A stretch of DNA of 47,546 nt from positions 1-47,546 of IMG/VR virus record IMGVR_UViG_3300025057_000010; one strand, 5' to 3'. The stretch is from a virus. The stretch's first letter is position 1, and the number at the start of each line of letters is the position of its first letter. A program made the translations under genes and the position numbers. The notes beneath the pieces are model-generated. The model saw nothing but the letters and a program-made list of their open reading frames with translations. It searched no databases and was not told where the DNA came from. Positions 2,579-13,438 of this stretch are shown here, piece after piece.

Positions 2579-2780
2579 ACTACCTGTTGAAGATAGACAA
2601 AGTGAGACACCTGCCTCTTAACTGATTAAGGAAAGCATAAACGGGCTCACTAACACAAACCAAGTAACGTGTTAAGTCTATTGGATGGTGTAAGATAGCA
2701 GAGGGGACTAACCCTTGAATTAGGGAGCGAAAGCATAGAACTGATGTATAGCTTGAACACTCCACTTGGGGGCAGGTAGT
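2579..2780 (+). ncRNA. candidate structured RNA, unit 2 (about 200 nt)
   Basis: The ends close with an 8-bp stem, ACTACCTG 2579-2586 with CAGGTAGT 2773-2780. Inside are AGTGAG 2601-2606 with CTCACT 2646-2651, AACAC 2652-2656 with GTGTT 2669-2673, CTAT 2678-2681 with ATAG 2695-2698, CCCT 2712-2715 with AGGG 2722-2725, a GC-GAAA-GC mini-hairpin, and CTCC paired across ACTT just before the closing strand. Its first 25 bases match unit 1 at 23 positions. No tRNA, RNase P or tmRNA hallmarks are visible. It ends about 17 bases before the next likely start codon, so a leader or riboregulator role is also possible. Confidence 0.55.
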
Positions 2781-2796: not shown

Positions 2797-3033
2797 ATGA
2801 TTATGGGAAATTTAAAATGGATTTTATTAGTGATGGAGTTACAAATAGCTTTATTGGGCTATTTAGTATTTTCATCTGAATTAAAAAAAAGAGATTCTCA
2901 AGATGATTTTAAAACAAACTATGAAATAGACTTAAAGGCGGATCATTACCTAATTAAAGGTGCTTATGACGGTAAAGTTCATAGAGTTGAATTTAATGAT
3001 TTAGAAGAATGGGTTATTAATGATAATATATGA
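2797..3033 (+). CDS. small membrane protein
   Basis: The frame could open at a GTG at 2779, but that lies inside the closing stem of the RNA structure, so ATG 2797 or 2803 is preferred. MGNLKWILLVMELQIALLGYL is one N-terminal transmembrane helix, followed by a charged region of about 50 residues that probably faces the cytoplasm or periplasm. Its stop overlaps the next start (ATGA), so the two are translationally coupled. No family recognised. Confidence 0.7.
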   Translation: MIMGNLKWILLVMELQIALLGYLVFSSELKKRDSQDDFKTNYEIDLKADHYLIKGAYDGKVHRVEFNDLEEWVINDNI

Positions 3034-3857
3034 TTATGAAAGAAGGAAAAGTAACATTTTTAATGGGAGAAAGAGAATATCAAAGATATTATGTAGATCT
3101 TATGTCCCGAGATGATGATTATAAAAGATTGAAATATTATAATCACGGTGTACCACAGTTTTATTTTGCAACAAAGAAAGAAACTGATACTCATATTTAC
3201 TGGAGTGGATGTAGCAAAAATCCAATGTTTGAAAATAGTAAATTGTTTTTCAAACATAATACACATGACGGAGCCACTTATGATAAGCAAAAGCAGACTC
3301 TAAAGATTTGGTTTGGTAAAAGATTGTGTAATTTAGAACATAGTGTAAAAACTGATATTATATCTCAATTTGCACCTTGGTTGGGGGAAGGACATGGTCA
3401 AAATCAATTACAAGTTATGATCAATAACAGAATTTTAAATAAAATTGCTAAAGGTAAAGTTAATTCTAATGAAGAATTAGTTGCTGAATTTTGCAAGAAT
3501 CAACCTTATAAAAGATTAAATATAGATTCTAATTTATTTACTGAGGTCTTAACATGTGGAGCATGGTTACCAGGTAAAGATCTAAGAACAGTTTTAGAAG
3601 CTACTGAAGATGTTAATCGTATGCTTAGATGGATATTAGTTAATGGAAGACTTGATTCTGACATTATAAATTTAAGCAGAATAGCATTAAGTATTGACAA
3701 AAAAGTTCCTACAAACCTCTCTCACGAAGAGAGAAAAAGTCTTAGTAAAGAATACTATTCTATATATAAAAATAGATTAGAAATTTATGAGGGTTTAGAA
3801 GGTTCTTTTCGATCTTATGAAGTTATTCCTGACGATGACGAAGATTTACCTTTTTAA
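3030..3857 (+). CDS. hypothetical protein with SSB-like acidic C-terminal tip
   Basis: 275 residues, coupled to the membrane protein upstream by ATGA. I do not recognise the body, which is basic and aromatic-rich in its first third. The last residues are PDDDEDLPF. Bacterial single-stranded DNA-binding proteins end in the same kind of tip (E. coli SSB: DDDIPF), which docks many DNA-repair and replication enzymes. The tail suggests either that this is itself a DNA-binding protein or that it mimics SSB to recruit or block host enzymes. This is inferred from the tail only. Confidence 0.85.
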   Translation: MIMKEGKVTFLMGEREYQRYYVDLMSRDDDYKRLKYYNHGVPQFYFATKKETDTHIYWSGCSKNPMFENSKLFFKHNTHDGATYDKQKQTLKIWFGKRLCNLEHSVKTDIISQFAPWLGEGHGQNQLQVMINNRILNKIAKGKVNSNEELVAEFCKNQPYKRLNIDSNLFTEVLTCGAWLPGKDLRTVLEATEDVNRMLRWILVNGRLDSDIINLSRIALSIDKKVPTNLSHEERKSLSKEYYSIYKNRLEIYEGLEGSFRSYEVIPDDDEDLPF

Positions 3858-4088: not shown

Positions 4089-4511
4089 ATGAATATCAGA
4101 GTTGAATATGAAGATACAGATGTTGCCAAAATATTATCAGAAATGATTAAACATCATAACAAAGAAGAGCTTGTAAAATTATTTACTCCTTTAATATGCG
4201 AGCATAGTGATGCTGTTCAAAGACTTTTTAAATTAAATATTCCAGGTAATAAGTTACCTAAAGTTTTATTAAACGGTACTATATGTAAAGTTCCCGTTGC
4301 TTCTTTAGGATATGAGGCTAATGAAAAGTTAATTAAGGAAAAATTTGCGGATCAAGATGATAATGTTCCTGTTAAGATTGCAGAATTTCGTGGTTATCAC
4401 GATTATGTTAATTACAGAATTGAATATACTAATGTTTTAGATGATGGAGAAATGGTTACAGCAACAACCAGTGTTAAATTTGCAGAAATAACAGAAATAG
4501 AAGAATTTTAA
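4089..4511 (+). CDS. hypothetical protein (140 aa)
   Basis: Starts MNIRVEYEDTDVAKILSEMI. The C-terminal half has alternating hydrophobic strands (YVNYRIEYTNVLDDGEMVTATTSVKF). It ends with an acidic tail EITEIEEF. It is the last gene before the terminator at 4549. No known function. Confidence 0.75.
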   Translation: MNIRVEYEDTDVAKILSEMIKHHNKEELVKLFTPLICEHSDAVQRLFKLNIPGNKLPKVLLNGTICKVPVASLGYEANEKLIKEKFADQDDNVPVKIAEFRGYHDYVNYRIEYTNVLDDGEMVTATTSVKFAEITEIEEF

Positions 4512-4513
4512 GA

Positions 4514-4528
4514 TAGTGTATCTGTGAT
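4514..4528 (+). promoter_or_regulatory. element resembling the left-end promoter repeats
   Basis: TAGTGT followed by TCTGTGAT repeats the two conserved blocks of the 127-219 tandem repeat, but with one base between them. It sits directly after the stop at 4511 and before a terminator, so it may be an operator-like or processing element rather than a promoter. Confidence 0.3.
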
Positions 4529-4548
4529 ATGCTTTTCCGAATAAATGA

Positions 4549-4577
4549 AACAGGGGGATTTAACATCTCCCTGTTTT
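4549..4577 (+). terminator. intrinsic terminator
   Basis: AACAGGGGGAT (4549-4559) pairs with ATCTCCCTGTT (4565-4575; one G-T pair), a 5-base loop, then a short T-run. It ends the 2797-4511 transcript. Confidence 0.85.
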
Positions 4578-4668
4578 CATTGTTAGCTATATATTATTAA
4601 ATAATATTTGTTTGTTTAAGTATATTACTTTAAATGTCATATATTTATCTGCATATTTATTATGTATA

Positions 4669-5034: not shown

Positions 5035-5517
5035 ATGAACTCAAAAGTAGTTGTATTAGCAGATGAAACAACAGGAGCTGTTGTTAATGTTTCACAAAAC
5101 AATCCTGAGTACGGATATCTCCGTGTTCAACAAGTAAGAACAATGATTGATGATAATGGTTTCTTGCGTAGAAAACCAATTTCAGCATTGATTCCGGGTA
5201 CAGTTGATGAGTTAAAAGCATCAGGGTTCTTTGCAGGACAAGAACTTGATGGTAAAATCATTGTAGAAGAATCACTAGAACCATTCAATGAGAAAAATCC
5301 AGATAGAGATTTGAAAATTGCTGGTGAAACTGGTATTGTTTGTACTTTAGGAGGACTACCTATTTACCGAAGAACTAAAATGAGTTTTGATGGTAGTTTA
5401 ACTGACACATTGGTTAAGCACGATAATGTTGAACAGTTACGTGAAGCATATCAAGCTGCTACAAAAGCTAATTCTGAAGGCATTCAAAGTGCAGCTGGAG
5501 CAGACTTTAATGTATAA
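5035..5517 (+). CDS. separately transcribed conserved-looking protein (160 aa)
   Basis: Starts MNSKVVVLADETTGAVVNVS. It has a 100-base leader, its own terminator at 5547, and a richer use of C-ending and G-ending codons than its neighbours, suggesting strong independent expression. Many short strands and glycines (residues about 80-120) would fit a compact beta fold. The position among replication genes would suit a DNA-binding role, but no motif proves it. Function unknown. Confidence 0.85.
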   Translation: MNSKVVVLADETTGAVVNVSQNNPEYGYLRVQQVRTMIDDNGFLRRKPISALIPGTVDELKASGFFAGQELDGKIIVEESLEPFNEKNPDRDLKIAGETGIVCTLGGLPIYRRTKMSFDGSLTDTLVKHDNVEQLREAYQAATKANSEGIQSAAGADFNV

Positions 5518-5546
5518 AAGTTGGAATAACTTATAATATATCTAAT

Positions 5547-5578
5547 AAAAAGGGGGTGTATAGCCCCCTTTTGTTTTA
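5547..5578 (+). terminator. intrinsic terminator
   Basis: AAAAGGGGG (5548-5556) pairs with CCCCCTTTT (5564-5572) across a 7-base loop, with more T after it. It isolates the 160-residue gene. Confidence 0.9.
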
Positions 5579-5591
5579 TTAATTTAATTGT

Positions 5592-6092
5592 ATGATTAAA
5601 ATGGAAAAGTTAAAAAAGCAGGTAAGACATTACCAATTGCATAGTGGTAAAACATATATGCAGTATGAACAAGATAAATACTCAAAATATCAGAACTACT
5701 TGTATAAAAGAGCTCTGTATGGATTAAGTAGTATTGAAAAGGATGAACTAGAGAAAATGTGTGAAAGAAAAAAACACAGGATCAGAACAGTTCATCGTAG
5801 AGCACAGGGGGTTTTAAATATTGCAAAACAGAAAGTTACTATTGCATATAGCAATGATATTTTTCAATATTTTTTCCCAAACTCTAAATTAACAAAGCAG
5901 TTAGCAGAGTTGACAGATACTGATGAAAACTTTAGAAATAGTTTAACTTTTAAAGATTTACTATTGACAAAAGATGATATTATTAGTATCTTTATAGAGA
6001 ACGGAATACTTCCTAAAAACTTTTTAAGTTTAAAAGAAGAACCTGTTAGATTGCCAAGTTTAAAAAATGAAAACAAAACTCAAAGAGTGTGA
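5592..6092 (+). CDS. basic hypothetical protein (166 aa)
   Basis: Starts at ATG 5592, with a second ATG at 5601 as an alternative. The first 90 residues are very rich in K, R, Y and Q and probably helical (KYSKYQNYLYKRALYGL), suggesting nucleic-acid contact. The second half is more acidic. It overlaps the HNH gene by 26 bases. No family recognised. Confidence 0.75.
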   Translation: MIKMEKLKKQVRHYQLHSGKTYMQYEQDKYSKYQNYLYKRALYGLSSIEKDELEKMCERKKHRIRTVHRRAQGVLNIAKQKVTIAYSNDIFQYFFPNSKLTKQLAELTDTDENFRNSLTFKDLLLTKDDIISIFIENGILPKNFLSLKEEPVRLPSLKNENKTQRV

Positions 6093-13098: not shown

Positions 13099-13438
13099 AA
13101 TAGTATTTACCAAAACAGGGATTTTGTAAAAAGTATTTAAGTGTGACCTTCGGGATGGCAATGTCATGTTAAGGTCTGGGAAGCGTAGTAGAAGTGGCTT
13201 ATTATGGTAGGACTTACCAAATAAGTGAATTTTCTTGTTAAGCGTGGAGACAGATGGGCAACCCAATGGTGACTGAAGGAGCAAAGTGTATGAGATCTTC
13301 TTGGTAATAGAGAAGACGGAGAGCCTAATACACAGTGTTAAGTTAATCAGTTAGTGTGGCTTATTCTTATGGAAAAAAAGAATAAGCAGAAACCTGCTCT
13401 GACTTAACACTACTTAAATTTATTAAAGAAAAACAAAG
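13099..13438 (+). ncRNA. candidate structured RNA region (about 340 nt)
   Basis: No gene fits. Clear helices in order: TTTA plus CAAAA with TTTTG plus TAAA (13106-13130); GACCTT 13145-13150 with AAGGTC 13171-13176; CTTATT-A-TGGTA 13198-13209 with TACCAAATAAG 13215-13225 (11 bp, one bulge); TGGG-CAA-CCCA 13255-13265; TCTTCT 13296-13301 with AGAAGA 13311-13316; AGTGTTAAGT 13334-13343 with ACTTAACACT 13402-13411 (10 bp), enclosing GCTTATTCTT 13359-13368 with AAGAATAAGC 13378-13387 (10 bp). No tRNA, rRNA or known riboswitch motif is recognised. Strand inferred from neighbouring genes. Confidence 0.6.

Follow-up and report, generated by a model that had tools for sequence, protein, structure and literature searches.

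The 47,546-nt record IMGVR_UViG_3300025057_000010, analysed over its full length and hereafter called the window, carries at about positions 2458–2784 a non-coding stretch of about 325 nt that may well be a stand-alone structured RNA gene of the phage. It lies just downstream of the gene for a 595-aa protein whose homologues have RNA genes as neighbours, and this gene is accompanied in dozens of phages by a clearly conserved small RNA element, which consists of two covarying helices and is absent from Rfam. The features of the locus are listed below; labels beginning with L denote loci.

16–84, + strand: copy of the small element beside the 595-aa gene (outer stem-AnA-inner 5 bp-UUCCU...UA-inner′-C-outer′)
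92–257, + strand: another RNA-like element (CCAACTTCCCAAGGGTTGGCAGT...ACTGAGTACTGAGGGG) preceding the 595-aa gene, shared with L018, L021 and L028
298–2085, + strand: conserved phage protein of 595 aa, with a helical-repeat middle part and no Pfam family
2458–2574, + strand: unit 1 (upstream), with a repeat copy, a local hairpin CTACC/GGTAG (2463–2479) and a helix of about 10 bp, TTGGGAGAGT/ACTCTCCCAA
2458–2486, + strand: direct repeat copy 1 (TAAAACTACCTGTTAAAGGTAGACAAAGT), beyond all shuffles
2575–2784, + strand: unit 2, with the second repeat copy, the closing stem P1 and weakly defined inner helices
2575–2603, + strand: direct repeat copy 2 (TAATACTACCTGTTGAAGATAGACAAAGT)
2576–2586, + strand: 5′ arm of P1 (AATACTACCTG), from sequence and fold
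2773–2783, + strand: 3′ arm of P1 (CAGGTAGTGTT), from sequence and fold
2782–2787, + strand: U6 run, a possible 3′ end or terminator
2797–3033, + strand: ORF of 78 aa, hydrophobic in a stretch near its N terminus (MIMGNLKWILLVMELQIALLGYLVF...), with no relative found
3030–3857, + strand: protein of 275 aa whose acidic tail, DDDEDLPF, is SSB-like

Composition, repeat and fold of the stretch

The G+C content of 2455–2780 is 0.41, against 0.31 for the whole record, and none of 945 sliding windows is higher. Within the stretch, a direct repeat of 29 nt is 26/29 identical between its two copies; when the same DNA is shuffled, the ten highest of 60 values are all only 19/29. Because the two copies start at 2458 and 2575, the feature divides into two tandem units, the second of which is the 202-nt structured RNA (2579–2780) of the first-pass annotation. 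The candidate RNA, at about 325 nt, is larger than in that reading, which had missed the repeat. No plausible ORF lies within the stretch, and a coding reading is out, as both codon changes between the repeat copies are non-synonymous and stops occur in frame.

The ends of the 202-nt RNA had been claimed to pair over 8 bp, and they do so perfectly (ACTACCTG/CAGGTAGT, 2579–2586 with 2773–2780). Outer A–U, A–U and U–G pairs lengthen this stem, P1, to 11 bp, and UUUUUU follows directly 3′ of it. The first ATG, at 2797, lies 16 nt past the stem, where the earlier estimate was about 17 bases. The five further helices described inside the stem fared less well: they are present in the minimum free energy (MFE) fold, but this fold accounts for 0.0007 of the ensemble, and most of them are lost in the centroid, which retains P1, a domain at 2601–2651, a CCCU hairpin and one weak helix only. 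The 3′ arm of P1 has an alternative partner at 2462–2469 in unit 1, which is equally able to pair, and GGGGGCAGGT can pair with ACCTGCCTC (2609–2617). The CTACC/GGTAG hairpin is intact in unit 1 and broken in unit 2, so that a long-range stem would be expected with unit 2.

By absolute MFE, the stretch ranks second lowest among the 188 windows of the record that were scored. Compared with dinucleotide shuffles, the 202-nt piece has a z-score of −1.26, with 18 of 200 shuffles folding equally well; a 336-nt piece reaches −2.55 (1 of 100 shuffles as good), a value as low as that found in 20% of the phage's 330-nt windows. A perfect 8-bp helix with the span of P1 arises in 17 of 60 shuffles, and the length of P1 is by itself ordinary. 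Read as a terminator, the 3′ end offers the 11 bp of P1 around a loop of about 186 nt, then U6, and a local G+C-rich hairpin that is weak.

Elsewhere in the window, a non-coding, G+C-richer region at 13100–13420 gives one of the phage's strongest folding signals (z −5.6) and contains a 10-bp stem, AGTGTTAAGT/ACTTAACACT; no relative of it was found.

Known families and the slot after the 595-aa gene

The first-pass annotation could place the RNA in no known family, and an Rfam search bears this out, with no match even at E ≤ 10; riboswitches, ribozymes and other known Rfam classes gave nothing credible up to that value. The tmRNA models RF00023 and RF04321 likewise gave no match up to E 10, and found their positive controls in L144, L095 and L060. 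ARAGORN called no tRNA cloverleaf with a T-arm in the stretch, and translation in three frames revealed no tmRNA tag frame ending in ALAA-stop. The reported RNA also contains no copy of the small element linked to the 595-aa family.

Searches for relatives were equally empty. No relative appeared in an exact motif scan of IMG/VR, in genome contigs reached via the 595-aa protein, through the 78-aa ORF or with nhmmer, and a covariance model built from the single sequence and run over 19 and 66 sources matched only itself. Several candidates were rejected: all 26 matches of a looser IMG/VR motif scan, among them L059, where the 11-nt complementary arm falls within the coding sequence of the next gene; blastn matches of about 33 nt in phages J2-1 and HM1, of which the J2-1 match runs antisense to a coding gene; and a covariance match in L029 (E 0.014), which lies in an A+T-rich region and breaks P1. 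A common origin of the window RNA, the L002 RNA, the window region 13100–13420 and the L192/L195 RNA was also discarded after a profile test without a match. The RNA matches no known family and, as no relatives were found, does not make up a family of its own either. Large ornate phage-associated RNAs such as GOLLD and ROOL provide a comparison. Similar to them, the reported RNA is a structured orphan phage RNA near RNA genes; unlike them, it is shorter and has neither an Rfam match nor homologues, the comparison being made via Rfam only.

In other loci, the position directly after the 595-aa gene, hereafter the slot, is taken by a variety of RNAs. In L144 the gene ends at 4385 and a permuted tmRNA occupies 4386–4638. 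A tmRNA sits directly downstream of the gene in L254, and in L095 one on the minus strand (2868–3124) lies at the stop codon of the family gene and overlaps it by a few bases; these two loci come from one contig and are counted once. In Phage Phass-1 (L060, 7461–7899) we identified an unannotated tmRNA (RF00023, 77.9 bits) directly after two copies of the small element. L187 has, at about 5388–5590, an Ile-like tRNA whose anticodon loop, as read from the sequence, appears to be interrupted by some 190 inserted nucleotides; ARAGORN does not call it. In L192 and L245 the gene is directly followed by an orphan RNA at least about 500 nt long (L245, 5307–6200; 90% over 552 nt), with a partial and weaker relation to L195 (5360–6290; 67% over 143 nt), and none of the three has an Rfam match.

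In L002, the nearest relative as judged by the flanking 595-aa gene, the slot holds about 480 nt of non-coding, G+C-richer DNA (1945–2425) with a 12-bp stem, CCATTTGTAAAG/CTTTACAGATGG, and a fold z-score of 0.1; it has no Rfam match and is not alignable to the reported RNA. In L004 (the same as L018) no RNA is present at the slot, and repeated RNA elements lie upstream of the 595-aa gene instead. Counted over tRNA and tmRNA genes within 2 kb of the gene, 134 are on its strand and 1 is on the other. As ARAGORN finds a tRNA or tmRNA within 900 nt downstream in only 15 of the 78 family loci, the argument from the slot is only suggestive.

The 595-aa protein family and its small RNA element

Homologues of the 595-aa protein were found with tblastn at 27–32% identity in S-CRM01 (g174), S-CBWM1 (gp22) and Phass-1. 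The first two are encoded inside tRNA clusters; the third has a tRNA and a tmRNA nearby. Alignments of 4, 7 and 11 family members, searched against PDB and Pfam, returned nothing credible, and no match in fold searches with models of the protein rose above background. Predicted helical repeats, together with the appearance of a phage Ro60 (9l5y) in both structure lists, raised the question of a Ro60-like identity; these lists derive from low-confidence models (pLDDT 47 and 59.5), and phiLo Ro60 9l5y (Z 4.7–4.8) and 9kop (Z 4.5) stand in them next to unrelated proteins. According to a review, TROVE proteins, which have a tRNA-like partner in cellular organisms, occur in some jumbo phages (PMC7824862). 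The locus resembles bacterial and phage Ro60 (Rsr) with its Y RNA or YrlA in that many RNAs are grouped next to a protein of predicted helical repeats. It differs in that the TROVE profile PF05731 has no match to the 595-aa family in 7 records at E ≤ 10, where one control genome was matched; such fold similarity as the low-confidence models show is weak and not above that of unrelated proteins. From its genetic company, we infer that the 595-aa protein may handle RNA.

A repeated motif, CATAGAAAGTTCC...ACTTTCCG, lies upstream of the gene in the window and its relatives. The motif forms a small element in which an outer stem, AnA, an inner helix of 5 bp, UUCCU (also written UUCCUnUU), a variable loop and UA are followed by the returning inner strand, a C and the returning outer strand. 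It is present in 68 of the 78 loci fetched by protein alone (L183–L260), or 57 of 66 non-redundant groups. These contain 157 copies, all on the strand of the gene and nearly all within about 1 kb, mostly just upstream. Scans of other viral loci, 203 kb in total, and of shuffled sequence gave no copy. An IMG/VR scan with part of the motif alone revealed new loci with tandem copies, and in 5 of 8 the same protein family adjoins.

Across 37 copies, each of the 11 pairs shows changes in both strands; 91.9% of cells are paired, and covariation scores 0.78, compared with 0.12–0.23 when slid. Because a copy had to form at least 4 of the 5 inner pairs and 3 outer pairs to be selected, these pairing counts are inflated. 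Sequence alone had revealed the initial copies, and the protein linkage does not depend on the pairing requirement. The element has no Rfam match, and no paper on it turned up in the open-access literature searched. Tandem arrays are found at the following positions.

L018: 1654–1787
L021: 2626–2849
L028: 16653–16779
L060: 6987–7452
L062: 3348–3795 and 5657–5716
L083, L090, L095, L107, L144 and L145: further arrays

In S-CRM01 (L062, 3451–3567), a copy of the element encloses a circularly permuted tRNA, with the 3′ half, a CTTCGG linker and the 5′ half in this order. This tRNA is unannotated in the record and, once normal order is restored with a guessed junction, is accepted by ARAGORN.

Other RNA-like features were noted as well. 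The element at 92–257 of the window recurs in L018 (1795–1930 and 2047–2145), L021 (2850–2915) and L028 (16785–16845); its insert varies in length, and it may form a CCC/GGG pseudoknot. L018 (the same as L004), from a related phage, also carries a Hatchet ribozyme (RF02678, 81 bits) at 460–597, upstream of the 595-aa gene, and, at 5660–5751, an odd tRNA call with the anticodon loop 'tttt' and a short insert.

Explanations of the RNA and its setting

The first-pass annotation had offered either an independent RNA or a structured leader of the downstream operon. The independent RNA is the better supported of the two, because the stretch is non-coding and G+C-rich, ends in a stem and U-run and lies where homologous loci can have stable RNA genes. 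The leader fits less well with the layouts of L002, L005 and L006. It would act in cis, the 3′ arm (CAGGTAGT) pairing alternatively with either repeat copy or with 2609–2617, so that an anti-terminator and the P1+U6 terminator form a switch governing the 78-aa ORF and the SSB-tailed gene. We consider such a leader unlikely. Structured mRNA leaders and riboswitches share with the reported RNA the distance of 16 nt to a start codon and the stem and U-run end, and one 3′ arm with three mutually exclusive 5′ partners would suit such a device. As opposed to known riboswitches, however, the RNA has no known or conserved aptamer and no Rfam riboswitch match, and it is not kept before the same genes in relatives. 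An AT-rich start context (AAAAATATGATTATG) is retained before the SSB-tailed gene of L002, although the RNA-like stretch directly before that gene is unrelated there and L002 lacks the 78-aa ORF. In L005 and L006 no such RNA accompanies the SSB-tailed gene; a HAD-like gene occupies the slot instead.

That the stretch encodes no functional RNA, being an intergenic region of odd composition, such as the remnant of a decayed insertion or gene, in which repeat and helices arose by chance, is about as improbable as the leader. The z-scores, ordinary for this phage, the ordinary length of P1 and the lack of a homologue would agree with it; against it stand the record's strongest G+C peak in a non-coding stretch, the similar stretch at the slot of L002 and the RNA-gene neighbourhood. 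Least probable of all, and in our view very unlikely, is a strongly diverged tmRNA, a two-piece tmRNA or an intron-bearing or permuted tRNA. Such genes do occupy the slot in L144, L095, L254 and L187, and the reported RNA resembles tmRNA and permuted tmRNA (RF00023, RF04321) in directly following a 595-aa-family gene on the same strand, in its few hundred nucleotides and in its paired ends. Unlike them, it has no tRNA-like domain, T-arm or CCA, no LAA-stop tag in any frame, and no match to the Rfam models at E ≤ 10 or in ARAGORN.

A stand-alone RNA gene is favoured by the highest G+C and second-lowest MFE in an A+T-rich phage, by a repeat beyond shuffles, by P1 with its U6, by the non-coding stretch at the L002 slot and by the tRNAs, tmRNAs and orphan RNAs beside homologues of the protein. 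It is disfavoured by the failure of searches to find a homologue, by a fold energy near that expected from composition, by the ordinary length of P1 and by the protein gene at the slot in the close relatives L005 and L006. Such an RNA would be transcribed rightward together with the preceding 595-aa gene, its 3′ end presumably fixed where the long-range P1 abuts U6. It would belong to an island of stable RNA genes around that gene, in a slot that can be used for tmRNAs, tRNAs and large RNAs. In the infected cell it would most likely function as a stable RNA, which the 595-aa protein might bind or process.

More tentatively than the RNA gene itself, we suggest that the locus could be part of an undescribed phage ribonucleoprotein system, in which a 595-aa-type protein is tied genetically to the covarying element and the RNAs of the flanking slots, including the reported one, are putative substrates or partners. 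Protection, end joining or processing of RNA during infection are examples of what such a system might do. Taken alone, the reported RNA joins the other orphan RNAs of phages, its function unreadable from sequence; its setting matters more. A protein family that matches nothing in Pfam or PDB and has a conserved RNA element at most of its loci bears the genetic signature expected of a dedicated RNA–protein machine. The linkage spans cyanobacterial and jumbo-size phages as well as crAss-like phages, judged by two giant ORFs; we take the window phage to be one of the latter from its two giant minus-strand ORFs (2616 and 2748 aa). The protein and its element thus form a defined pair that is testable directly in culturable phages, such as S-CRM01.
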